A stretch of DNA of 64,000 nt. It comes from Luteibacter aegosomaticola. GTDB lineage: Bacteria; Pseudomonadota; Gammaproteobacteria; Xanthomonadales; Rhodanobacteraceae. Below are positions 37,590 through 54,508 of the stretch, in pieces (the first letter of the stretch is position 1; every line of letters starts with the position of its first letter). Below the pieces are notes generated by a model. That model had not been told where the DNA came from and made no database searches. It saw only the letters and a program-made list of their open reading frames with translations. The stretch covers positions 3,472,001 to 3,536,000 of the forward strand of contig NZ_CP095741.1 in NCBI RefSeq assembly GCF_023078475.1, written 5' to 3'. Made by a program: the position numbers and the translations under genes.

Positions 37590-40500
37590 TCACATATTGC
37601 GGCGGTATTCGCCACCCACGTCGTACAACGCGTGGCTGATCTGGCCGAGGCTGTTGTTCTTCACGGCATCCATCAGCTGCTCGAAGACGTTGCGGCGCTC
37701 CCGGGCGGTGTTCTGCAGGGTGCGCAGGCTTTCCGGCGCCAGACCGTTTCGGGCGTTGCCGTAGCGCTGCACGTTCTCGATCTGCTGGCCCTTCTCTTCC
37801 GGCGTGGAGCGGATGAGCTCGATCTCGGTGGCGATTTCGCCAACGTGGTCCTTGGGCAGGAAGGTGTTGACGCCGATGAGCGGAAGCGAGCCATCGTGCT
37901 TCTTGTGCTCGTAGTACATCGACTCTTCCTGGATCTTGCCGCGCTGGTACATGGTATCCATGGCACCCAGCACGCCACCGCGCTCGCTGATCGCCTCGAA
38001 TTCCTTGTACACGGCTTCTTCGACCAGATCGGTCAGCTCATCGACGATGAAGCTGCCCTGCCACGGGTTCTCGTTGAAGTTGAGGCCCAGCTCACGATTA
38101 ATGATGAGCTGGATGGCCACGGCACGGCGCACGCTCTCCTCGGTCGGCGTGGTGATCGCCTCGTCGTAGGCATTGGTGTGCAGGCTATTGCAGTTGTCGA
38201 ACAACGCGTACAGCGCCTGCAGCGTGGTGCGGATGTCGTTGAACTGGATTTCCTGAGCGTGTAGCGAACGGCCCGAGGTCTGGATGTGATACTTCAGCAT
38301 CTGGCTGCGCGCGCTGGCACCGTAGCGCTCGCGCATGGCTCGGGCCCAGATACGGCGGGCGACACGGCCGATCACGGTGTATTCCGGATCCATGCCGTTG
38401 GAGAAGAAGAACGACAGGTTCGGCGCGAAGTCGTCGATCTGCATGCCACGAGCGAGGTAGTACTCGACGATGGTGAAGCCGTTCGACAGGGTGAAGGCCA
38501 GCTGGCTGATCGGATTCGCACCCGCTTCGGCGATGTGGTAGCCCGAGATCGAGACCGAGTAGAAATTGCGGACCTTGTGGTCCACGAAGTACTGCTGGAT
38601 ATCGCCCATCATGCGCAGGGCGAACTCCGTGCTGAAGATGCACGTGTTCTGCGCCTGGTCTTCCTTCAGGATATCGGCCTGCACCGTGCCGCGCACGGTA
38701 GCGAGCGTGTAGGCCTTGATCCGCGCGTAGGTGGCGTCGTCCACCACTTCCTCGCCCGAGACGCCGAGCAGGCCGAGACCCAGGCCGTCGTTACCGGCCG
38801 GCAGGTCACCGTGGTAAAGCGGACGGTTGCCATCCGGGTAAAGCTCGGCGATGCGCGCGTTCACGGCATCCCAGCGCGCGGGCTCTTCGTTAAGGTACTT
38901 CTCGATGTTCTGATCGATCGCCGTGTTCATGAACATGGCGAGGATGATCGGCGCCGGACCGTTGATCGTCATCGATACCGAGGTGCTCGGCGCGGACAGG
39001 TCGAAGCCGGAGTACAGCTTCTTCATGTCATCGAGCGTGGCGATGGAAACGCCCGAGTTACCGATCTTGCCGTAGATATCCGGGCGCGGCGCCGGGTCTT
39101 CGCCGTACAGCGTCACCGAGTCGAATGCCGTGGACAGGCGTGCGGCGGCGCCACCCAGCGAGAGGTAGTGGAAGCGGCGGTTGGTGCGCTCGGGCGTGCC
39201 CTCGCCCGCGAACATGCGGGTCGGATCCTCGCCAGCGCGGCGATACGGGAACACCCCGCCGGTGTACGGGTAGTAGCCCGGCAGGTTCTCGCGCATGAGG
39301 AACGAGAGCTGTTCGCCCCAATCCTTCGTCTTCGGCGGCGACACCTTCGGGATCTTCTGGTGGCTCAGCGATTCGCGGTAGTTCTCGACGCGGATGACCT
39401 TGTCGCGCACGGTGTATTCGTTGTACTCGGCTGTGACCGAGGCGAAGCGCACTGGCCACTCACGCAGGAGGTTGATCGCCTCGCTGCTCAGTTCGCGCAC
39501 CGCCGTGTTGTAGCGCTGGCGCAGCGTCGCGAGCGAGCGGTCACCGTCGACGGTGAGCTGGGCGTGGTCGTACAGGTCGAACGCGCGCGGCAGCGCGTCA
39601 TCGCCGATGTCCTTCAGCGATTCGAAATAGTGCTGCGCCTTGGCGGCTGCTTCGGCCTGCTTTGCGATCGAGGCATTGACGCCACGCCCCTGCTCTGCGA
39701 TTTCGGCGAGGTAGCGCACGCGGCTGCCCGGGATGAGCACCGTGGCTCGCGGCTCGCGCAGGCTGGTGTCGAGCTCCGGCGTCCAGCCCTCGCCCGGCAG
39801 CGTGAGCTTCTCGCGCAGCAGGCGGCACAGGTTATCGAACATCCAGGTAACGCCCGGGTCGTTGAACTGACTGGCGATGGTCGGGTACACCGGCACCTTA
39901 TCGTCGGCCAGGTTGAACGCGGTGCGGTTGCGCTTCCACTGCTTGCGCACGTCGCGCAGCGCGTCTTCCGCACCGCGCTTATCGAACTTGTTCAGCACCA
40001 CGAGCTCGGCGAAATCGAGCATGTCGATCTTTTCGAGCTGGCTGGCGGCGCCGTATTCGCTGGTCATCACGTAGACCGGGAAATCGACGAGGTCGACGAT
40101 CTCGGAATCGCTCTGGCCGATACCGGCGGTTTCGACGATGACCAGGTCATACGCCTGGGCCTTCAGGAAATCGATGCAGTCATGCAGCACGATCGACGTC
40201 GCGGCGTGCTGGCGGCGCGTGGCCATGGAGCGCATGTACACGCGGTGGCTACGCAGCGAGTTCATGCGGATGCGATCGCCCAGCAGCGCGCCACCGCTAC
40301 GGCGGCGGGTCGGGTCGACCGCGAGCACCGCGATGCGCATCTGCGGGAACGCGTGCAGGAAGCGCAGCAGCAGTTCATCCACCACTGAGGACTTACCCGC
40401 ACCGCCGGTACCGGTAAGGCCAAGCACGGGCGTCTTGCCGCCAGCGAGTTTCCACTCTTTGCGCAGACGCTCGAGTTCGGCGGCCGGCAGGGTGTCTTCT

Positions 40501-41042
40501 TCGATGGCGGAGAGCATGCCACCAATCGAGATTTCGTCTTCGATCGAGGTGGCCGGAGGCACCGCTTCCGCGCGCGCTTTCTGCGCATTACGCGTGCGCG
40601 TCATCACGTCTTCGATCATCTCGACGAGACCGAGCTTCATGCCATCGTTCGGGTGATAGATGCGCTCGACGCCGTAGGCCTGCAGCTCGCGGATTTCTTC
40701 GGGCGTAATCGTGCCGCCGCCACCACCGAACACGCGCACGTGGCCCGCGCCGCGCTCGCGCAGCATGTCCACCATGTACTTGAAGTACTCCACGTGGCCG
40801 CCCTGGTACGACGACAGCGCGATGGCGTCGGCATCTTCCTGCAGGGCCGCGCGCACGACGTCTTCCACCGAGCGGTTATGACCAAGGTGGATCACCTCGG
40901 CGCCCTGGCTCTGGATGATCCGGCGCATGATGTTGATCGCGGCGTCGTGGCCGTCGAACAGGCTCGCCGCCGTGACGAAACGCAGCGGCGTCGCCTCCGC
41001 GTCGGTGTTGCTGGCGGGGATGTGCTTGGGCTGCGAGCTCAT
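37590..41042 (-). CDS. icmF: fused isobutyryl-CoA mutase with G-protein chaperone
   Basis: A 1150-residue fusion. An N-terminal B12-binding domain (about residues 20-150; the cobalt-ligand His32 is in FDGHDAAIN, with SSYQGG and VFGGGGGTI) is followed by a MeaB/ArgK-type GTPase (P-loop GTGGAGKSS at 211-219) and the acyl-CoA mutase TIM barrel ([40 protein letters not shown]). This order is IcmF, which interconverts isobutyryl-CoA and butyryl-CoA with adenosylcobalamin and loads its own cofactor. It links valine or isobutyrate breakdown to beta-oxidation. Monocistronic, with a terminator. Confidence 0.93.
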
Positions 41043-44357: not shown

Positions 44358-44627
44358 ATGAGCGCGATCCCCGCCGAAACCTTCACCCAAGATGACATCC
44401 TGGCTCGCCTGCGGTCCGTCCTGCATGAGACGTTCGAGATCGACCCGGCGAAGGTAACCCCGGAGGCTAACCTCTTCTCCGACCTGGAGCTGGACAGCAT
44501 CGATGCGATCGATCTGGCCATCCAGGTGCAGGACATGACCGGCACCCGCATCAAGCCCGAAGACTTCAAGAGCGTGCGTACCGTGGGCGATGTCGTCGCC
44601 ACCGTGCAGCAGCTCGTCGCGCGCTGA
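44358..44627 (+). CDS. acyl carrier protein of the pigment cluster
   Basis: An 89-residue ACP with the phosphopantetheine-attachment Ser in LELDSIDAIDLAIQ (about residue 50), followed by the expected helices (KPEDFKSVRTVGDVVATVQQL). It carries the growing polyene chain as a thioester. It is the first gene of an operon running to 54508. Aryl-polyene clusters usually have two ACP genes; only one is found here. The start has a weak ribosome-binding site. Confidence 0.9.
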   Translation: MSAIPAETFTQDDILARLRSVLHETFEIDPAKVTPEANLFSDLELDSIDAIDLAIQVQDMTGTRIKPEDFKSVRTVGDVVATVQQLVAR

Positions 44628-44633
44628 GGCGTC

Positions 44634-45419
44634 ATGCTGGGCCCCGCCGGACCGCGCGCCAACGCGGAACGTAGGTTCGCGCCCTGCGCGGTCATACCCA
44701 TCTACAACCACGGCCGCACCATCGCGGCCACGGCCAACGCCCTGGCGGCGCACGGCCTGCCCGTGCTGGTCGTGGACGATGGCTCGAATGAAGAAACCCA
44801 ACGCATCCTGGACGAGCTCGTCGCCGGGCGCGATGACCTGCGCCTGATCCGCCAGCCACGTAACGGCGGCAAGGGCGTGGCCCTGTCGACCGGGTTCCAG
44901 GCCGCCTACGAGGCCGGCTACACCCACGTCCTGCAGATCGATGCCGATGGCCAGCACGATACGGCCGACGTGCCGCGTTTCCTCGCCGAGGCCCAGGCCG
45001 CCCCGGATGCGATGATCTGCGGCTGCCCCGTGTACGACGCTTCGATCCCGAAGGCACGCTACTACGGGCGCTATCTCACCCATGCGTGCGTCTGGCTGGA
45101 AACACTCTCCTTCGACATCAAGGACTCGATGCTGGGCTACCGCCTGTATCCGCTGGCCGCGACGTGCGAGGAGATGGCCCGCAAGCCCTTCCCGCCCCGC
45201 ATGGATTTCGATACCGAGATCGCGGTGCGCCTGTTCTGGCGCGGCGTGCCGGTACGCAATGTAGCCACCCGGGTGATCTACCCGGAGAATGGCCTCTCCC
45301 ATTTCCGCCTGTGGCGCGATAACGCACGCATCACGGCCATGCATACCCGCCTGCTCCTGGGCATGCTGCCGCGCGCGCCGCGCCTGCTCCTGCACAAGCT
45401 CACACGGAAAAACGCCTGA
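44634..45419 (+). CDS. family 2 glycosyltransferase of the pigment cluster
   Basis: A 261-residue GT-A-fold glycosyltransferase: CAVIPIYNHGRTIAATANAL, VVDDGSNEET, the metal-binding DADGQHD, then the acceptor region MDFDTEIAVRLFWRG. It has no membrane helix of its own except possibly a C-terminal amphipathic stretch. It may transfer a sugar or act on the lipid head group of the pigment; the acceptor is unknown. It ends with TGATG, sharing its stop with the next start. Confidence 0.88.
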   Translation: MLGPAGPRANAERRFAPCAVIPIYNHGRTIAATANALAAHGLPVLVVDDGSNEETQRILDELVAGRDDLRLIRQPRNGGKGVALSTGFQAAYEAGYTHVLQIDADGQHDTADVPRFLAEAQAAPDAMICGCPVYDASIPKARYYGRYLTHACVWLETLSFDIKDSMLGYRLYPLAATCEEMARKPFPPRMDFDTEIAVRLFWRGVPVRNVATRVIYPENGLSHFRLWRDNARITAMHTRLLLGMLPRAPRLLLHKLTRKNA

Positions 45420-46033
45420 TGCGTCGTCTTATCGCCCTGTTCGCCCTGCTCTGTGCCGCTACCGCCGCCCACGCCCAGGCGGTACCGCCGCTGGTCGACG
45501 ACATCCTGGCCCACCTCGGCAAGCACCAGCAGGTCCGCGCCGAGTTCACCCAGAGCCGCGCGAACCCCGACCTGGCCGAGCCGCAGGTGAGCAAGGGCGA
45601 CCTGCTGTTCGTCGTGGGCAAGGGCATGATCTGGCGCACGCGCGAGCCGTTCGAGGACACCCTGGTGCTTACCTCGGGCGATGCCCGCCGCCTGAATGCC
45701 CAGGGCAAGCTGGAGCGCGTGCGCGACGGCAACCGCGGCGTCAGCCAGGTCTCCGGCATGCTGCAGGGCATGCTGGCTGGCAAGGCGGATGAAGCCGCGC
45801 GCCAGTTCACGATCACCGCCGAAGGCACGCTGGACGACTGGACCCTGCATTTCGTGCCGAAGCAGGCGCGCGTAGCTCGCGTGCTGGCCGGCATCACCCT
45901 GAAGGGCGATGCCTTCCTCGAAGGTATCGAGGTGAACCTCGCCAGCGGCGAGAAGACCACGATCACCTTCGCGAACACCCGCGATGCCGGTGAGCTGAGC
46001 GCACAGGAAGCCCAGGTCCTCGGCGTCAAATGA
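45419..46033 (+). CDS. LolA-like outer-membrane lipoprotein carrier of the pigment cluster
   Basis: A 204-residue exported protein with signal peptide (RRLIALFALLCAATAAHAQ) and a LolA-type fold (VRAEFTQSRANPDLAEPQVSKGDLLFVVGKGMIWRTREPFEDT). LolA homologues in aryl-polyene clusters are thought to carry the lipidic polyene across the periplasm. Its stop overlaps the start of the exporter (ATGA). Confidence 0.85.
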   Translation: MRRLIALFALLCAATAAHAQAVPPLVDDILAHLGKHQQVRAEFTQSRANPDLAEPQVSKGDLLFVVGKGMIWRTREPFEDTLVLTSGDARRLNAQGKLERVRDGNRGVSQVSGMLQGMLAGKADEAARQFTITAEGTLDDWTLHFVPKQARVARVLAGITLKGDAFLEGIEVNLASGEKTTITFANTRDAGELSAQEAQVLGVK

Positions 46034-48381
46034 AGCCGTCACGGACCACTTTCCGCGCGGTGGTATTCGCCGCGGTGTCGCTGCTGGTGTGCGCACTGGG
46101 GGCGTGGTTGCTGTTCGGCCGGGCCACCTCGCCCCTGCAGACCGACCTTCTGGCGATGCTGCCAGCCACCGAGCGCAATGCGCTGGCGGAAAACGCCGTG
46201 GAACGCCTGTCGCGTGCCAGTGGCGACCGCATGATCCTGCTGGTGGCGAACAAGGATGACGATGCAGCGAAGGATGCCGCGCGCGAGCTAGGTGCCGAGC
46301 TGGGCAAGGACAAGGTCTTCGCCCACGTGCTGGCCGAGCTGCCGCCGTTCGACATGGAGCAACTGGTCAACCCGTTCCTGCCGTACCGCTTCCACCTGCT
46401 GACCGGCGATGACCGCGCCGCACTGGCCACGGCAGGCTTCAATCCCGTCGATACGCTGAAGCGCCGGCTGAACGAGCCGTTCGGCGCCACGATCGGCCCC
46501 CGGCTGGGGGACGATCCGTTCGGCTGGTTGTCACACTGGCTCGAACAACAGCCGTGGAACCGCTCCACCCTCGTGCCGGAAGATGATCTGCTCACGGCGC
46601 ATCGCGACGATGCCAGCTACGTGCTGGTGGTCGCCACGCTGGATGGTTCTTCGTATGACGATGGCGTGCAGCGCCGTGCGCTGGCCGCGCTGGACCATGC
46701 CGAGCACGATATCGTCGCGAAGCACCCGGGGACGCGCCTGCTCCGTACCGGCGCGATTTTCTATGCAGCCTCGGCGCGTGCCGGTGCCGAACGCGATACG
46801 CATGTGGTCGGTATCACCTCCACCATCGGCATCGCGATTCTGCTGCTGTTCGTGTTCCGATCCATGCGGCCGCTGGCCATCGCGTTCCTCTCCACGGCGC
46901 TGGGCGTCGTGGGTGCCGTGGTCGCCACCATCCTCGTCTTCGGTCAGCTCCACCTCCTGACCCTGGTGTTCGGCGCCGCGCTGCTCGGCGAGGCCGTCGA
47001 CTATTCCATCCAGTATTTGTGTGCCCGCGCGAACATGGGCCCCGTGTGGGAGCCGTCGCGTGGTGTGCGCCAGGTGCGCCCTGCCCTGTTGCTCGCCCTC
47101 GCCACGTCGTTGCTTGGCTATGCGCTGCTCGCCATGGTGCCGTTCCCGGCGCTGCGCCAGATGGCCGTGTTCGCCATCGCCGGCATGGCGGTGGCCTGCG
47201 CCAGCGTGTTCTGGCTGCTGCCCGCCCTGCTCCGCAAGCCCGCCAACACGCCGCTGGCCACGCCGTTCGTGCGCGTGGCCCTGGCCTGGCAGCGCGCGGC
47301 TTCGGGTCGCCGAGCCTTCATCGCCATCGGCGTGCTCACGCTGGCGGCCATTCCAGGCTGGCTCAAGCTGGGCCACGATGACGATATCCACCTGCTGATC
47401 TCGCCCCCTGCCTGGCTCGAAGCGCAGACCAACGAGATCCGCGACGTCGCCGGCTTCGGCGGTGGCAGCCAGTTCTGGCTCGTGGAAGGCGATTCCACCG
47501 AAGCCGTGCTCGAACATGAAGAAGCACTGGCCGACCGCCTGCGCAACGAAGGCATCGCCTTCACCGGCGTGAGCGGCATGTTGCCTTCTCAGAAGCGCCA
47601 ATCCGAAAACCTGGCAGCCATCTGCAGGAGCGTGCTTGCACGCGATGGGGCTTGCGATAACGCCGATCGCGCGCAAGCGCGCTCCTACATGACTGGCGCT
47701 GGATTTAAGGCTGAGGCGGCCGAGGCGTATTTCGCCGCGTTCCCGGGCAAGGCGTTTACGCTTGAGGACTGGAAGCGCATTCCCGCCTACATGCCGTTCC
47801 AGTACCTGTGGATGGACAAGGGCAGCATCGTGGTGCCGCAGGGTGATGTCGACGTGGCGCGGATGCGCGCCATGGCCGATGGCCTGCCGGGTGTTTCGGT
47901 GATCGACAAGCCGGCAAGCATCTCGACGCTGTTCGGCGAGTACCGCGGCTTCGCCAGCCTGTGGCTAGGCGCCGCCATGATCCTGGTCGCCGCCGCGTTC
48001 GCCTGGCGCTACGGGCGCCGTGGCGCGCTGCGCGTGCTGCTGCCGCCGCTGGCCGGCATCGTCTTCAGTGTCGCTGCGCTGGGCTACCTGGGCCAGCCAC
48101 TCACGCTGTTCCACCTCATGGCCCTGATGCTCGTGCTGGGCGTGGGCGCAAACTATGCCGTCTTTCTACGCGAAGGCGAGCCGCACTCGGCACATACGCC
48201 TGGCGCCGCCTACGCGGGCGTGCTGCTTTCGGCGGTGACCGCCCTGCTCTCCTTCGGCCTGCTCGCGCTGAGCACGATGCCTGCCCTGCAACATTTCGGG
48301 CTCACCCTGTTGCTCGGGATCGGCTTCACCGCCCTCCTGGCACCGGTGAGCGCCCCCGCACCCGTGAAGAACCCCGCATGA
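46030..48381 (+). CDS. RND/MMPL-type exporter of the pigment cluster
   Basis: A 783-residue transporter with the MMPL repeat pattern: helix 1 at residues 10-28, a periplasmic domain, five helices (about 258-410), a second periplasmic domain (about 440-630) and six more helices. GEAVDYSIQYLCAR and GVGANYAVFLREG are the paired helix-4 motifs. It presumably exports the polyene lipid with the LolA-like protein. Odd: residues about 532-553 of the second periplasmic domain are encoded by a REP pair (47624-47688). Residues on both sides keep family-like character and the frame stays open. Confidence 0.88.
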   Translation: MKPSRTTFRAVVFAAVSLLVCALGAWLLFGRATSPLQTDLLAMLPATERNALAENAVERLSRASGDRMILLVANKDDDAAKDAARELGAELGKDKVFAHVLAELPPFDMEQLVNPFLPYRFHLLTGDDRAALATAGFNPVDTLKRRLNEPFGATIGPRLGDDPFGWLSHWLEQQPWNRSTLVPEDDLLTAHRDDASYVLVVATLDGSSYDDGVQRRALAALDHAEHDIVAKHPGTRLLRTGAIFYAASARAGAERDTHVVGITSTIGIAILLLFVFRSMRPLAIAFLSTALGVVGAVVATILVFGQLHLLTLVFGAALLGEAVDYSIQYLCARANMGPVWEPSRGVRQVRPALLLALATSLLGYALLAMVPFPALRQMAVFAIAGMAVACASVFWLLPALLRKPANTPLATPFVRVALAWQRAASGRRAFIAIGVLTLAAIPGWLKLGHDDDIHLLISPPAWLEAQTNEIRDVAGFGGGSQFWLVEGDSTEAVLEHEEALADRLRNEGIAFTGVSGMLPSQKRQSENLAAICRSVLARDGACDNADRAQARSYMTGAGFKAEAAEAYFAAFPGKAFTLEDWKRIPAYMPFQYLWMDKGSIVVPQGDVDVARMRAMADGLPGVSVIDKPASISTLFGEYRGFASLWLGAAMILVAAAFAWRYGRRGALRVLLPPLAGIVFSVAALGYLGQPLTLFHLMALMLVLGVGANYAVFLREGEPHSAHTPGAAYAGVLLSAVTALLSFGLLALSTMPALQHFGLTLLLGIGFTALLAPVSAPAPVKNPA
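47624..47688. repeat. REP/BIME element, type B, inside the exporter coding sequence
   Basis: Two 23-nt arms, 47624-47646 and 47666-47688, face each other as in the intergenic copy at 57956-58010. Only one base differs in the outer GTAGGAG (GCAGGAG here). The 65 bp are translated in frame with the exporter. Confidence 0.88.
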
Positions 48382-48413
48382 ACACCACCGCAAACGCTAC
48401 GGGAGGTCGCGCG

Positions 48414-49640
48414 ATGAAACGCGTTGTCGTTACCGGTATCGGCGGCATTACGCCCCTGGGCCACGACTGGGCCACGATCGAGCCGCGCCTGCGCGCCTTC
48501 CGCAACGTCGTCCGCCGCATGGGCGAATGGGATTACTTCGATGCGCTTAACGGCCGCCTCGGGGTTCCCGTCGATGACTTCACGCCGCCGGCGCACTGGT
48601 CGCGCAAGCAGATGCGCTCGATGGGCCGCGTGGCCTTGCTCGCCACTGCCGCCAGCGAGCGCGCCCTCGCCGATGCGGGGCTGCTCAATGACGAGAGCAT
48701 CCAGGATGGCCGCATGGGCGTGGCCTACGGCTCCTCGGGCGGCAGCATCGAACCCGCGCGCACCGTGGGCCGCATGCTGGAAACCGGCTCGATGCAGGGC
48801 GTCACGGCCACCAGCTATATCCAGATGATGGCGCATACCACGGCGGTGAACGTGGGTGTGTTTTTCGGCTTGAAAGGGCGGGTGATCACCACCTCGAGCG
48901 CGTGTACCTCGGGCAGCCAGGCCATCGGCTACGGCTACGAGGCGATCCAGCAGGGCAAGCAGAAGCTCATGTTGTGCGGCGGTGCCGAAGAGCTCTCGGG
49001 CCCCGGCGCGGCGGTGTTCGATACGCTGTTTGCCACCAGCACCCGCAACGACACACCAGAGGTCACGCCGCGCCCGTTCGATGCGAAGCGTGATGGCCTG
49101 GTCGTCGGCGAAGGTGCGGTGACGCTCGTGCTCGAAGAGTACGAGCACGCCGTGGCCCGCGGCGCGCGCATTTACGCGGAAATCGTCGGCTTCGGGACGA
49201 ATTCGGATGGCGCGCACATCACCCAGCCCACGCGCGAGACCATGGCGGCGGCGATGCGCATGGCGCTCGCCGACGCGGATCTGGAATCTTCGGCCATTGG
49301 CTACGTGAGCGCGCATGGCACCGCCACCGATCGCGGCGACGTGGCCGAAAGCCACGCCACGCACGATGTCCTCGGCGGCGGCGTGCCGATCAGCTCGATG
49401 AAGAGCTATGTAGGTCACACGCTGGGTGCGTGCGGTGCGCTGGAATCGTGGTGGATCATCGAAATGATGCGTGGCGGCTGGTTCGCGCCGACGATCAATC
49501 TTGAGACGCCCGATCCGGAATGCGCCGCGCTGGATTACGTCACGGGCGAAGGCCGCGAGATCCAGACGCGCTATGTGATGAACAACAACTTCGCGTTCGG
49601 CGGCATCAACACCTCGCTGATCTTCAAGGCGCACGACTGA
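48414..49640 (+). CDS. beta-ketoacyl-ACP synthase (KS) 1 of the pigment cluster
   Basis: A 408-residue FabF-type ketosynthase with a full Cys-His-His triad: Cys in TTSSACTSGSQAIG, His in SAHGTATDRGD and His in KSYVGHTLGACGALE. It elongates the polyene by decarboxylative condensation with malonyl-ACP. The ATG at 48414 (MKRVVVTGIGG) has GGAGG 8 nt upstream and matches the family start; an ATG at 48378 overlaps the exporter stop (ATGA) and could also be used, adding 12 residues. Confidence 0.9.
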   Translation: MKRVVVTGIGGITPLGHDWATIEPRLRAFRNVVRRMGEWDYFDALNGRLGVPVDDFTPPAHWSRKQMRSMGRVALLATAASERALADAGLLNDESIQDGRMGVAYGSSGGSIEPARTVGRMLETGSMQGVTATSYIQMMAHTTAVNVGVFFGLKGRVITTSSACTSGSQAIGYGYEAIQQGKQKLMLCGGAEELSGPGAAVFDTLFATSTRNDTPEVTPRPFDAKRDGLVVGEGAVTLVLEEYEHAVARGARIYAEIVGFGTNSDGAHITQPTRETMAAAMRMALADADLESSAIGYVSAHGTATDRGDVAESHATHDVLGGGVPISSMKSYVGHTLGACGALESWWIIEMMRGGWFAPTINLETPDPECAALDYVTGEGREIQTRYVMNNNFAFGGINTSLIFKAHD

Positions 49641-50875
49641 TGCGTCGCGTCGTCGTCACCGGCATGGGCGCGGTGTCCTGTCTTGGGGCGGGACGCGAGG
49701 CTTTCTTCAGCGGCCTTCGCGAGGGCCGTACCGGCTTTCGCGATATGCCGGATTACGCCGAGCTCGGCATGCGTTGCCGCACGGCAGCGCCCGTGGATCT
49801 GGGCACGCTGGAGCCCCCGCCGCGTAAGCTGCGCCGGTACTTCCCGCCATCAGCGGAGTTTGCCTGGCACGCCACGCGCGAAGCCCTGGCCGAGGCGGGC
49901 CTCGATGAAGCGCGCGTGCGCGAGCGTGACGTCGGCCTGGTGATGGGCGGCTCCTCCGCCCTCTCGGAATACGAAGCCGGCCTGAATGTGTACCGCGCCA
50001 AGGGCTATGCACGCCTGTCGCCGTTCATCGTCCCGCGCAGCATGGGCAGCGCGCTCGCAGCGAGCCTGATCAACGCGTTTGGCTTCGGCGGCCGCGGCTT
50101 CACCATCGGTTCGGCCTGCACCAGCGCCACCCACGCGATCGGCCAGGCGATGGAGCTGATCCAGCTCGGCCGCCAGGACATCGTGGTGTGCGGCGGCGCG
50201 GAGGAACTGCACGACAAGGCCTCCATGTGCTTCGACGTGATGAACGCGCTCACGACCACGAGCACCGTGGGCGAGCGCGTTTCCACGCCTTATGCCGCGG
50301 ATCGCGACGGCATCGTGCTGGGCGGCGGCGCCGGCGTGCTGGTGCTCGAATCCCTCGACCACGCGCTGGCGCGTGGCGCGACGATCCTGGCCGAAATGGC
50401 TGGCTACGGCGCGGCGTCTGACCCCGAGGCCATGATCAGCCCGCGCAGCGAAGGCATGGCCGAGGCCATGCACCAGGCCATCGACCTGGCCGGCGTGATG
50501 CCGGATTACGTGAACACCCATGCCTGCGCCACGATCGACGGCGATGCCGCGGAATGGCAGGCGCTGCGCAAGGTTTTCGGCGACCGCGGCCACGCGGTGC
50601 CGTGGATGTCGTCGATCAAGGGCCTGGTGGGCCACGCCACGGCCGCCGCGGGGGCGCTGGATGCCATTGCCTGTATCGGCATGATCGAACACGGCGTGCT
50701 CCTTGCGGGCGCCCCGCCGCACAAGGTCGATCCCACCTTCGACGACGCCCCCCTGCTGGATGGCGAACGCAATGCGATGGTGGACGCCGTCCTTTCGAAC
50801 AGCTTCGGTTTCGGCGGAAGCTGCGCAGCGCTGGTGATCCGGCGCTACCATGAGCCCGACCTCGCCCAGGCCTGA
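49640..50875 (+). CDS. beta-ketoacyl-ACP synthase (KS) 2 of the pigment cluster
   Basis: A 411-residue ketosynthase starting MRRVVVTGMGAVSCLG, with Cys in GSACTSATHAIG, His in NTHACATIDGD and His in KGLVGHATAAAGALD. The triad is intact, so it is not a chain-length factor lacking the Cys. The THACATIDGD site differs from the usual HGTxTxxGD, as in other pigment-cluster KS partners. It starts at TGATG within the stop of KS1; the two probably form a heterodimer. Confidence 0.9.
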   Translation: MRRVVVTGMGAVSCLGAGREAFFSGLREGRTGFRDMPDYAELGMRCRTAAPVDLGTLEPPPRKLRRYFPPSAEFAWHATREALAEAGLDEARVRERDVGLVMGGSSALSEYEAGLNVYRAKGYARLSPFIVPRSMGSALAASLINAFGFGGRGFTIGSACTSATHAIGQAMELIQLGRQDIVVCGGAEELHDKASMCFDVMNALTTTSTVGERVSTPYAADRDGIVLGGGAGVLVLESLDHALARGATILAEMAGYGAASDPEAMISPRSEGMAEAMHQAIDLAGVMPDYVNTHACATIDGDAAEWQALRKVFGDRGHAVPWMSSIKGLVGHATAAAGALDAIACIGMIEHGVLLAGAPPHKVDPTFDDAPLLDGERNAMVDAVLSNSFGFGGSCAALVIRRYHEPDLAQA

Positions 50876-50880
50876 CCCCC

Positions 50881-51669
50881 ATGGAACTTGCAGCCGACAC
50901 GACGAAACGCCGCGCCGACGCCTGGGCTTGCCGGTTCATATTCACCGCCCTTTCCTTCGCTTTTTTCGGTCTGGGCGGGCTGTTCCTGCGTATCGTGATC
51001 CTGCCGATCGTGATGCACTGGCCTGCCCCCATCGAAGTGCGCCGCCGCCGGGCGCGCCGCACGGTCGGCAAGGCGTTCTGGCTGCACTCGCAGTTCATGG
51101 CGCGCACCGGCGTGCTCACCTACCAGTTTGAAGGCCTTGAGCGGCTGGGCCGGCCCGGCCAGATGATCGTGGCCAACCACCCCTCGCTCATCGACGTGGT
51201 GTTCATCATCGGCCACGTGCCGAACGCGAATTGCGTGGTGAAACACAGCCTCTGGAAGAACCCGTTCATGCGCGGTCCGGTGACCGTGGCCGAATACATC
51301 AGCAACGACGGCAGTGCCGACATGCTGGACCGTGCCGCCGATGTGCTGCGCGACGGGCAGACACTGATCGTGTTCCCCGAAGGCACTCGCACCACCCCCG
51401 GCCACGCCCCCGTGTTCCATCGCGGTGCGTCGGCCATCGCCATACGCGGAGCGAAGGTGATCACGCCGGTCTTCATCACCGTCAAACCGACCACGCTGAC
51501 CAAGGCCGAGCCCTGGTACCGGATCCCCGATCGCCGCGTGCACATGCACCTGCGCGTCGGTGAGGACATCGACGTGGCGAGCTACAGCCTTGATACGCCG
51601 GCACCCATCGCTTCGCGCCGCCTCAACGAACACCTGCACCAGCTTTATGCGCGGGAGCTCCACGCATGA
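50881..51669 (+). CDS. lysophospholipid/1-acylglycerol-3-phosphate-type acyltransferase
   Basis: A 262-residue PlsC-type acyltransferase with an N-terminal helix (IFTALSFAFFGLGGLFL), the acyltransferase HX4D motif in NHPSLIDV, the FPEGTRTT motif and the ITPVFITV region. In aryl-polyene clusters such enzymes attach the polyene chain to the glycerol or sugar part of the lipid anchor. It is an inner-membrane protein and shares ATGATG with the next gene. Confidence 0.88.
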   Translation: MELAADTTKRRADAWACRFIFTALSFAFFGLGGLFLRIVILPIVMHWPAPIEVRRRRARRTVGKAFWLHSQFMARTGVLTYQFEGLERLGRPGQMIVANHPSLIDVVFIIGHVPNANCVVKHSLWKNPFMRGPVTVAEYISNDGSADMLDRAADVLRDGQTLIVFPEGTRTTPGHAPVFHRGASAIAIRGAKVITPVFITVKPTTLTKAEPWYRIPDRRVHMHLRVGEDIDVASYSLDTPAPIASRRLNEHLHQLYARELHA

Positions 51670-52880
51670 TGCCGCAAAGCCATGCTTCGGGCCCGCGCAA
51701 GCTGGCCAACCTCCTGCTCGTCGTGGTGGGCGTGCTGTACCCGTTCATCGTGTACTTCGGCGGCGACCACGTTTCGCCCCCGCTGTTCGGCTTGATCCTG
51801 GGCGCCCTTTGGCTGGTACGTGCACCGGCGTTGCTGCACCAGCCCGGCGGCAAGTGGATGCTGGGCGCCACGCTCGCCTACTGCGGCGTGCTCGCGTTTG
51901 GTGGGCACGACGAACTGCTGCGCTGGTACCCAAGCCTCATCTGCGCCCTGTTGTTTGCGGGCTTTGTGCACAGCCTCATTTACGGGCCGCCGATCATCGA
52001 ACGCATCGCGCGCACGATGGAGCCCGATCTTCCGGCGGCGGCCATTCCCTACACACGCAAGGTCACCTGGGTGTGGGCTGCGTTTTTTGCCGTGAACGGT
52101 ACCTGCTCGGCCCTGCTGGCCCTGTGGGGGCCGCTGTCGTGGTGGACCTTCTACAACGGCGTGCTCGCCTATGCGGCCCTCGCCACGCTGTTTGCGGTGG
52201 AGTGGCTTTGCCGCCAGCGCATGCGGCGGCGCCTTCGCACCTCGCCCATGGGCACGGCGGCCAGTGGCCTGGCTTCACACCCGTGGGTATCTGCCGCAGC
52301 CGGTGGTGACGCTGGCCACGGTTCGCCGGGCATGGTTGTCGCGCTGACCGCCTCGGGCCGTATCGCCCTTGCACGCCACGGCCGCGCTGGCCTCATCGGC
52401 GAGCTGGGCCAGCACGCCGCGGGCGACGATGCGCTTGCCACGCCGATGGTCTGGCGCTTCGTGGAGAAGCTCCCGGAGGCCGCGCGGATCGATCTTCTGT
52501 TGCAGGCCCCCCTGCCGCGCATCGCGACGGTGGAGGCCGAACGGATGGAAGGTGACACCCACGTGCTGTCGCTAACCCTCCCCCTGGACCTGGCCTGCTT
52601 CGTCGATCATTTTCCGACCGCGCCGGTACTGCCAGGTGTCTTGCAGATTGCATGGGCGCTGGAATTCGCATCGTCGCGTTTCGGCACGCCGACCACCTGC
52701 CGCGGCATGGACCAGCTCAAGTTCCAGCGCCTGCTGCGCCCCGGTGACCGCATGACGCTTTCGCTGCGCCACGACACCGCGCGCGGCCGCCTGCATTTCA
52801 CCTACCGCATCGGCGATGCGGTCTGTTCCTCTGCGCACCTTCGCGTGGATGCCGTTCCGGGAGCCATTGATGCGCGGTAA
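51666..52880 (+). CDS. COG4648 membrane protein fused to AMP-ligase C-terminal remnant and ApeI-like dehydratase
   Basis: A 404-residue composite. Residues 1-190: a five- to six-helix membrane domain (KLANLLLVVVGVLYPFIVYF..VWAAFFAVNGTCSALLAL) of the COG4648 type. Residues 201-275: a segment that reads like the extreme C terminus of an acyl-AMP ligase (GLASHPWVSAAA, VVALTASGRIALARHGRAGL, VWRFVEKLPEAARIDLL), but without the catalytic-Lys motif. Residues 290-404: a hotdog dehydratase-like domain with FVDHFPTAPVLPGVLQIAWA (ApeI type). In related clusters the COG4648 gene is followed by a ligase-dehydratase gene, so this looks like an in-frame deletion of the ligase body. It overlaps the next gene by 11 nt. 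Confidence 0.78.
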   Translation: MMPQSHASGPRKLANLLLVVVGVLYPFIVYFGGDHVSPPLFGLILGALWLVRAPALLHQPGGKWMLGATLAYCGVLAFGGHDELLRWYPSLICALLFAGFVHSLIYGPPIIERIARTMEPDLPAAAIPYTRKVTWVWAAFFAVNGTCSALLALWGPLSWWTFYNGVLAYAALATLFAVEWLCRQRMRRRLRTSPMGTAASGLASHPWVSAAAGGDAGHGSPGMVVALTASGRIALARHGRAGLIGELGQHAAGDDALATPMVWRFVEKLPEAARIDLLLQAPLPRIATVEAERMEGDTHVLSLTLPLDLACFVDHFPTAPVLPGVLQIAWALEFASSRFGTPTTCRGMDQLKFQRLLRPGDRMTLSLRHDTARGRLHFTYRIGDAVCSSAHLRVDAVPGAIDAR

Positions 52881-53310
52881 GGGTGTGCTCGCCGCCGAGA
52901 TCGATGTCGTCGTGCCGTTCTTCGACGTGGATTCGCTCGAGATCGTGTGGCACGGGCATTACGTCAAATACCTTGAAGTGGCCCGCTGTGCGCTGCTCGA
53001 CGACCTCGGCCACAACTACGTGCGGATGAAGGAAACCGGCTTCGCGTGGCCCATCATCGACCTGCAGTTGCGCTATGCGCGTGCCGCACGCTTCGGCCAG
53101 GCGCTTCGCGTTCGCGCCGAACTGGTCGAATGGGAGAACCGGCTGAAGGTTCACTACACGATTAGCGATACAGCGACCGGCGAGCGGCTCACGCGCGCCA
53201 GCACCATCCAGGTCGCCGTGCGCCTGTCCGACGGGGAAATGCAGCTCGTTTCGCCGGGTTGCTTCATCGCCGACGTGGAAAAGCGGTTAGCGCGAGGGAA
53301 TACGCTATGA
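52870..53310 (+). CDS. 4-hydroxybenzoyl-CoA-type thioesterase (hotdog)
   Basis: A 146-residue hotdog thioesterase. VPFFDVDSLEIVWHGHYVKYLEVAR contains the Asp of the YbgC/4HBT active site, with LQLRYARAARFGQALRVRAEL further on. It would release the acyl chain from the ACP or remove stalled chains. The ATG at 52870 lies inside the preceding gene, consistent with translational coupling; the end overlaps the next start (ATGA). Confidence 0.85.
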   Translation: MRGKGVLAAEIDVVVPFFDVDSLEIVWHGHYVKYLEVARCALLDDLGHNYVRMKETGFAWPIIDLQLRYARAARFGQALRVRAELVEWENRLKVHYTISDTATGERLTRASTIQVAVRLSDGEMQLVSPGCFIADVEKRLARGNTL

Positions 53311-53783
53311 CATCGTGGAGCATCGAACAGCTGTTGCCCCATGCCGGTCGCATGGTTTGGCTGGATCGCGTCGTGGAATGGGATGCCGACCGCGTGCTGT
53401 GTGAACGCACCGTGCGCCATGGCGATCTCGAAGTCACGGCCGACGGCCTGCCTTCCTGGGCTGGCATCGAACTGATGGCACAGGCCATCGCCGCATGGAA
53501 TGGGTGCCAGGTCCTGTCAGCGGGTGGTGAGGTACGGCCGGGTTTCCTGCTCGGCACGCGGGCCTACCGCGCCGATGGCGACGCCTTCCCTGTCGGGAGC
53601 GTGCTGCGCATCGAAGCCGTACGCACGTTCCATGATGAAGACGGCATGGCCTCGTTCGCGTGCCGCATCACGAGCGCCGACGCGCAGGCCGAAGCCCGCC
53701 TGACCGTGTTCAGCCCGGTCGATCCGACGCCCTTCCTCGATCCGCGCAATACCCATCTCGACCCCACCGGAAACGCTTCATGA
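53307..53783 (+). CDS. ApeP-like 3-hydroxyacyl-ACP dehydratase (hotdog)
   Basis: A 158-residue dehydratase-like protein: LLPHAGRMVWLDRVVEWD (FabZ/FabA-type His), then LPSWAGIELMAQAIAAWNGCQVL with the acidic partner. This matches the small dehydratase ApeP of aryl-polyene clusters, which pairs with ApeI to keep the chain unsaturated. The ATG at 53307 shares ATGA with the thioesterase stop; it ends ATGA with the ketoreductase start. Confidence 0.85.
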   Translation: MTSWSIEQLLPHAGRMVWLDRVVEWDADRVLCERTVRHGDLEVTADGLPSWAGIELMAQAIAAWNGCQVLSAGGEVRPGFLLGTRAYRADGDAFPVGSVLRIEAVRTFHDEDGMASFACRITSADAQAEARLTVFSPVDPTPFLDPRNTHLDPTGNAS

Positions 53784-54508
53784 CCGACACCATCCTCGTT
53801 ACTGGCTCCAGCCGCGGCATTGGCCGCGCTATCGCGCTTTCCCTCGCGGATGCCGGCTACGACCTCGTGGTGCATTGCCGTTCCCGCCGCGATGAGGCCG
53901 AGGCCGTGCAGGCCGAGATCATGGCCCGCGGCCGCAGCGCGCGCGTGCTGCAGTTCGATGTGGCCGACCGTGCCGCGACGGCCGAGGCGCTCGAGGCGGA
54001 CGTGGCCGCGCACGGCGCGTACTACGGTGTGGTCTGCAATGCGGGCCTGACCCGCGATGGCGCCTTCCCCGGCCTGACGTCCGAGGATTGGGATCAGGTG
54101 CTACGGACCAACCTCGATGGCTTTTACAACGTGCTTCACCCGCTGGTGATGCCGATGATCCGTCGGCGTGCCGCTGGTCGCATCGTTTGCATCACGTCGG
54201 TATCGGGGATCATTGGTAACCGTGGCCAGGTGAATTACAGCGCCTCGAAGGCTGGCGTCATTGGCGCCGCCAAGGCGCTTGCCGTCGAGCTGGCCAAACG
54301 CAAGATCACCGTGAACTGCGTGGCGCCGGGCCTGATCGATACCGACATGCTCGATCCCGAAGTACCCGTGGAGCAGATCCTGAAGGTCATTCCGATGGAA
54401 CGCAGCGGGACGCCTGAAGAAGTCGCCGCGGCCGTGCGTTTCCTCGTGAGCCCGGAAGCGGGCTACATCACCCGCCAGGTGCTCGCCGTCAACGGCGGCC
54501 TCTGCTGA
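53780..54508 (+). CDS. 3-oxoacyl-ACP reductase (FabG-like) of the pigment cluster
   Basis: A 242-residue SDR with TGSSRGIGRAIALSL, NAGLTRD, the Ser in CITSVSGIIG and intact catalytic YSASK, and the C-terminal GGLC. It reduces the 3-oxoacyl-ACP with NADPH in each elongation cycle. It is the last gene of the operon, followed by a REP repeat at 54521-54560. Confidence 0.92.
   Translation: MTDTILVTGSSRGIGRAIALSLADAGYDLVVHCRSRRDEAEAVQAEIMARGRSARVLQFDVADRAATAEALEADVAAHGAYYGVVCNAGLTRDGAFPGLTSEDWDQVLRTNLDGFYNVLHPLVMPMIRRRAAGRIVCITSVSGIIGNRGQVNYSASKAGVIGAAKALAVELAKRKITVNCVAPGLIDTDMLDPEVPVEQILKVIPMERSGTPEEVAAAVRFLVSPEAGYITRQVLAVNGGLC

Follow-up and report, generated by a model that had tools for sequence, protein, structure and literature searches.

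A fused ApeG-ApeI protein carrying a ligase C-terminal subdomain in an aryl polyene cluster of Luteibacter aegosomaticola

The window, a stretch of 64,000 nucleotides from Luteibacter aegosomaticola (G000:C1:3472001-3536000; genome of 5.09 Mb, single contig), contains a yellow-pigment gene cluster of aryl polyene type (cluster A) in which a single open reading frame (ORF; 51666..52880, + strand, ATG to TAA, 404 aa) joins an ApeG-type membrane domain, the C-terminal subdomain of an ApeH-type acyl-AMP ligase and an ApeI-type dehydratase. From the observed sequence and the predicted fold, on which all the biochemical roles discussed here are based, a reasonably probable account is that the catalytic body of the ligase was lost, that the dead tail was later fused to ApeG, that a XanA2-type ligase acts in trans, and that the remnant serves as a spacer or docking domain through which the dehydratase is tethered to the membrane.

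The middle of the protein (residues 196-285; 52251..52520, + strand) is the C-terminal subdomain of an ApeH-type ligase and lacks the catalytic-Lys (NxQGK) stretch. Over residues 200-392 the protein is 43% identical to the ligase-dehydratase P0050 from Pseudomonas indica (its residues 350-552; E 3e-41), and the middle part alone matched a ligase-dehydratase profile with a probability of 96.8% (hhalign, profile to profile, E 2.5e-10). An initial annotation had taken residues 201-275 for the last segment of an acyl-AMP ligase; GLASHPWV and WRFVEKLPEAARIDLL are both present in the window protein and the two matches bear this out, as does the comparison it proposed of residues 195-290 with full ligase-dehydratases, which revealed similarity to the ligase C terminus. 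Chance resemblance of residues 195-290 was considered, and is ruled out by the P0050 alignment together with the profile-profile match. Among the matches listed for the structure model of the remnant, 42 of 42 were adenylate-forming enzymes; the fold is that of the C-terminal subdomain of ANL enzymes, and it was also confident in the full-length model. A direct sequence search of the remnant profile against solved structures gave nothing believable (best rows MarR, E about 0.09). The N-terminal adenylate-binding core (PF00501) is missing, the remnant beginning at P0050 residue 343-350. In adenylate-forming enzymes the catalytic Lys motif is called A10-type. None of the 19 aligned remnant rows (8 fused, 11 free) has NxQGK, which the single full-ligase row does have, and the window protein has no Lys in the catalytic-Lys stretch, in keeping with the earlier statement that this region is gone.

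On either side of the remnant lie the two other parts that had been proposed, and both were recovered. Residues 1-190 (51666..52235, + strand) make up the ApeG/COG4648-type domain, with membrane-type helices in the model and by hydrophobicity and charge count; the domain ends in an Arg-rich stretch (183-190), which points to a cytoplasmic tail. NCBIfam gave weak IspZ/septation-protein matches for this part (E 0.001-0.005), and Pfam gave no match within residues 1-285, hence not to PF00501 either. The domain was identified as ApeG because it occupies the apeG position of the E. coli gene order, ahead of ligase or dehydratase, and has homologues in that position, so COG4648 is here a label by position and not by a COG model. 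Residues 290-404 (52533..52877, + strand) are an ApeI-type dehydratase: PF22818 (ApeI-like) matched residues 298-382 with 43.4 bits (Pfam cut-off 28.5), and Foldseek aligned the domain with 6qsr_A, from the ApeI:P heterocomplex of Xenorhabdus doucetiae (TMt 0.88, root-mean-square deviation 1.8). As in that system an ApeP-like gene is at hand, downstream at 53307..53783 (+ strand, PF22817), whereas the Luteibacter ApeI is fused to a membrane protein. The ApeP-like dehydratase is likely the partner of the ApeI domain, and dehydratase activity of the pair is predicted.

An assembly or frameshift artefact was also considered, and is ruled out by the presence of the full-length fusion in 20 of 23 Luteibacter genomes; two of these (G089, G155) have one TGA marked each, and open frames of 390 and 489 aa contain the gene. 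G147 has the first part only, and G062 and the 80%-complete G151 have none. Cluster A is lacking or lost in G062 and G147; in the latter (L129, G147:C15) the degraded cluster consists only of apeG and flanking genes. Across the family the protein was matched in 62 of 147 genomes, some weakly and via the dehydratase only. No plasmid record covered 80% of the query. The Met195 codon (52248..52250, + strand) lies close to where the ancestral genes met and is conserved in all 19 fused genes that were read, and a separate remnant-dehydratase product might also be made from this internal ATG; no ribosome-binding site was seen upstream of it by eye in the window sequence.

Selection on the fused gene was measured in 19 of the 20 genomes (G148 left out). 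The median dN/dS of the remnant was 0.19 (170 pairs with usable pS), compared with 0.20 for ApeG and 0.25 for ApeI (171 pairs). This ratio is near that of its neighbours and the remnant is therefore held as firmly as they are. It evolves under purifying selection, which points to retention, probably as a non-catalytic domain.

Comparison with known systems bears on how the fusion arose. In E. coli, apeG (COG4648), apeH (acyl-ACP synthetase; ACP, acyl carrier protein) and apeI (dehydratase) are listed in this order in Table 1 of PMC8253772. These are the components of the Luteibacter ORF in the same order, but in that table they are three separate full genes, whereas Luteibacter has a single ORF in which only the C-terminal subdomain of the ligase is left. 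In fused ligase-dehydratases (PF00501 + PF22818; P0050 and the 561-aa protein of G004), the last 200-215 residues align with remnant and dehydratase; compared with these, the Luteibacter protein is without the adenylate-binding body and the catalytic Lys, and is joined to ApeG instead. The free remnant dehydratases of Dyella and other genera of the family (199-211 aa) have the same remnant and dehydratase, also without NxQGK, but unlike the Luteibacter fusion are encoded by a separate gene that overlaps the apeG stop.

Outside the genus, the loci read fall into three classes by the spacing between the apeG stop and the dehydratase: 1350-1418 nt where a whole ligase is present (6 rows), 261-300 nt where the remnant is (11 rows) and 15-58 nt where nothing lies between (18 rows). 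Each of the 11 relatives read outside the genus that have both apeG and the remnant encodes the remnant-dehydratase in a gene of its own, of about 205 aa. The apeG stop overlaps the next start (NTGA) in all 11 rows with the remnant and in 16 of the 18 with nothing between. The same overlap was flagged in all six full-ligase rows, and in four of them opens a ligase frame of 458-561 aa (561 aa in G004, 458-465 aa in three Aeromonas); the frame ends after 131 aa in G099 and after 22 in the fourth Aeromonas. In G099 (L041), a distant aryl polyene cluster, the ligase gene stops after 131 aa though ligase homology continues. Residue 3 of a free remnant gene aligns with ligase residue 343, and about 340 codons from just after the apeH start are missing in every family cluster of the window type that was read, while the distant clusters of G004 and G099 retain a full cluster ligase. 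Given the shared overlap and the alignment to residue 343, the start of apeH was most likely kept and its inside removed. Thus the gene arrangements suggest that a deletion inside apeH probably removed the ligase body before the fusion to apeG took place in Luteibacter. A fusion universal in the genus, at a position where the ligase had never been present, had been named beforehand as evidence against the proposed loss of a ligase body. The fusion is indeed nearly universal in Luteibacter, but a ligase does occur at that position in other lineages.

A tree built by a quick method from eight cluster proteins, with 48 rows that cover 13 of the 20 fused genomes (L129, L055 and L058, from degraded clusters, and L059, from the same contig as G157, left out), grouped the 13 fused rows with G011 in a single clade with support of 100, G011 pairing with G153 at 85. 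G011 (L043) kept the remnant-dehydratase and lost apeG, the exporter and LolA from its cluster. Remnants occur in all four main branches, the order of which is not settled by the tree. The best reading would be that the stem lineage of the family's cluster lost the body, that the remnant was dropped repeatedly elsewhere, and that fusion occurred once, in the Luteibacter line.

Activation of the starter would then have to come from another locus, as the initial annotation had anticipated, and the separate acyl-AMP ligase gene that it suggested looking for was found. The source genome has 10 AMP-binding (PF00501) matches, none of them in the window, and cluster A has no ApeH of its own. The closest relative of ApeH in the genome is a complete stand-alone ligase of XanA2 type (G000:C1:294241-295593, 452 aa, PF00501), in which NETGK was read by eye and whose gene is flanked by tsaC- and purD-like genes (recognised by eye). 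It matched the ApeH-type profile with 180.9 bits and the next own ligase with 77.3, in a comparison of 8 of the 10 AMP-binding loci plus XanA2, the tenth being in the same open frame as L004. A 77% identical protein is named XanA2 in NCBI, under an odd organism label. The names 'Bacillus sp. NP157' and 'Rothia nasimurium' on P0010 and P0120, which share 73-77% identity with proteins of this Luteibacter genome, look wrong. Xcc4015 of Xanthomonas is presumably XanA2. PMC3949708 reports Xcc4015 as an AMP-ligase essential for xanthomonadin, and ArcT of Azoarcus as active on 3-HBA (3-hydroxybenzoate). As described there both are AMP-ligases for an aryl starter, of which the stand-alone gene is the likely counterpart, with orthology taken from the database name alone.

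The XanA2-type ligase was found (E ≤ 1e-30) in 142 of 147 family genomes, including 59 of the 62 that match the fused protein. It is missing from G004 and G099, which carry a full cluster ligase, from G023, which has neither pigment marker, from G097, which is 87% complete, and from G020. The XanA2-type ligase is probably the best substitute for the lost ApeH body, and from its co-occurrence the loading of hydroxybenzoate for cluster A is a candidate role.

A second, xanthomonadin-type pigment cluster (cluster B) lies at about G000:C1:319-326 kb and encodes an ACP, two dehydratases, an acyltransferase, a halogenase-like protein, a glycosyltransferase, a half-ketosynthase and a ketosynthase. 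Its half-ketosynthase marker was detected in 142 of 147 family genomes (E ≤ 1e-10) and was weak (E 1e-12 to 1e-22) in G002, G028, G017, G137 and G088. The first four of these retain XanA2 (in two pieces in G028). Cluster A looks complete in G002, G028 and G137, and is degraded in G017 (L055), where it is without the main ketosynthases and ApeI.

In the window's subclade (the window, G112, G033, G149 and G157) cluster A is five genes short. Compared over window positions 48378-54508, it has lost the half-ketosynthase (PF13723), second ACP, acyltransferase, an unknown 242-aa gene and the third ketosynthase, all of which are kept in the eight further cluster-A rows read in the genus (L056, L067, L074, L075, L078, L081, L082 and L130). 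Cluster B of the window's own genome contains homologues of four of the five, at 31-51% identity, the match of the half-ketosynthase spanning 54% of its length. Cluster B of this genome has lost its exporter: the acyltransferase abuts the ApeP-like gene (L084:1947-3342, G000:C1 about 319.9-321.3 kb), at the place where G143 has an MMPL exporter. Among the 23 Luteibacter genomes, seven have both exporter types, nine the A type only, seven the B type only and none neither. Direct reading of the locus showed loss of the A type only for G047, G076, G101 and the degraded G147, and of the B type only for the window's own genome, the remaining losses being absence at E ≤ 1e-20. With relatedness ignored, the probability of finding no genome with neither is P 0.014, and the pattern suggests that parts are shared between the clusters. 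A tentative and rather doubtful extension is that the two aryl polyene clusters form one pathway over two loci. Cluster A would have given up its ligase and then, in the window's subclade, the second ACP, third ketosynthase, half-ketosynthase and acyltransferase (homologues of which are in B), and cluster B its exporter, covered by that of A; the dead ligase tail would be a docking domain that receives XanA2-loaded substrate and feeds a membrane-anchored ApeI:ApeP.

Several observations weigh against a simple version of this history, with loss of the body, later fusion and supply by XanA2. Well supported branches of the tree require that the no-remnant state changed at least five times. The free remnant of G049 (L025) retains DAGK near the place of the catalytic Lys, the other 18 having no Lys there. 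Of the 85 family genomes in which the fused protein has no match, 83 have XanA2 as well, and it is missing from G020, although this gap is probably technical because the neighbouring PurD also has no good match. The repeated changes of state, the many relatives without the remnant and the lack of any remaining Pfam match in it are what would be expected if it were decaying junk, a functionless in-frame filler on its way out. This is nevertheless unlikely, since its dN/dS is not above that of the flanking domains, the full-length model gives it a confident fold, and it is retained in 20 of 23 genus genomes and seen in six other genera. The initial annotation had favoured a single deletion joining the first gene to the 3' end of the second. 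Such a deletion, fusing apeG directly to the 3' end of apeHI, yields the same three-part protein, and as the base of the tree is unsettled parsimony alone is compatible with one early fusion followed by splits into separate genes. That proposal fared poorly, and is now very unlikely: in 11 of 11 relatives the separate remnant gene carries the NTGA overlap of the full-ligase outgroups, so that splitting would need to recreate it, and the fused rows are confined to one clade.

As to the starter, the absence of a ligase body from the cluster could mean that an aryl starter is no longer used, the product having changed and the ligase being unneeded, and the loss of the second ACP, third ketosynthase, half-ketosynthase and acyltransferase in the window's subclade would fit this. 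It is quite unlikely, however, as the XanA2-type ligase is kept in nearly all genomes matching the fused protein, including three that have cluster A without a strong cluster-B marker, and the ketosynthase, ketoreductase, dehydratase and thioesterase are conserved, as mostly is the exporter. With 10 AMP-binding matches in the genome, another own ligase, for example the 549-aa L007, might load the starter instead of XanA2, but the profile scores make XanA2 by far the best ApeH-type match and there is little chance of this.

In the proposed mechanism the XanA2-type ligase, going with cluster B, would also load the aryl starter (hydroxybenzoate) for cluster A in trans, and the in-cluster ligase would therefore be dispensable. 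The ketosynthases, ketoreductase and ApeI:ApeP would carry out elongation. The remnant may survive as a non-catalytic spacer or docking domain, and through it the fusion to ApeG would keep ApeI, and ApeP with it, close to the exporter on the cytoplasmic side of the inner membrane.

The remaining genes of cluster A, all on the + strand, are those of an aryl polyene cluster. The fused ORF is preceded by genes for an ACP (44358..44627; PF00550, 48.4 bits), a family 2 glycosyltransferase (44634..45419; PF00535), a LolA-like carrier (45419..46033; PF19574/PF03548), an MMPL/RND-type exporter of the cluster A type (46030..48381; PF03176), ketosynthase 1 (48378..49640; PF00109/PF02801), ketosynthase 2 (49640..50875; PF00109/PF02801), which is perhaps a chain-length-factor partner, and an acyltransferase (50881..51669; PF01553) whose stop overlaps the start of the fused ORF. 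Downstream are a 4HBT thioesterase (52870..53310; PF13279/PF03061) and, beyond the ApeP-like dehydratase, a FabG-type ketoreductase (53780..54508; Pfam/NCBIfam). Elsewhere in the window, 37590-41042 (- strand) encodes a 1150-aa fused acyl-CoA mutase with B12-binding, MeaB GTPase and methylmalonyl-CoA mutase domains.

The component parts are already known; the new element is a selected, dead ligase tail that joins ApeG to ApeI. No such tail was found in the open literature, among the matches listed, nor was xanthomonadin together with xanA2 in the open literature searched, in which one paper mentions both Luteibacter and aryl polyene. This looks like a natural case in which an activating enzyme loses its catalytic body and its small C-terminal subdomain is selected for another purpose. 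The lack of a ligase need not mean that an aryl polyene cluster is broken, as activation can sit at another locus, and here the activating step is probably shared with the second pigment cluster. The stepwise series in Luteibacter and Dyella, from full ligase to free remnant to fused or dropped remnant, makes both points testable.
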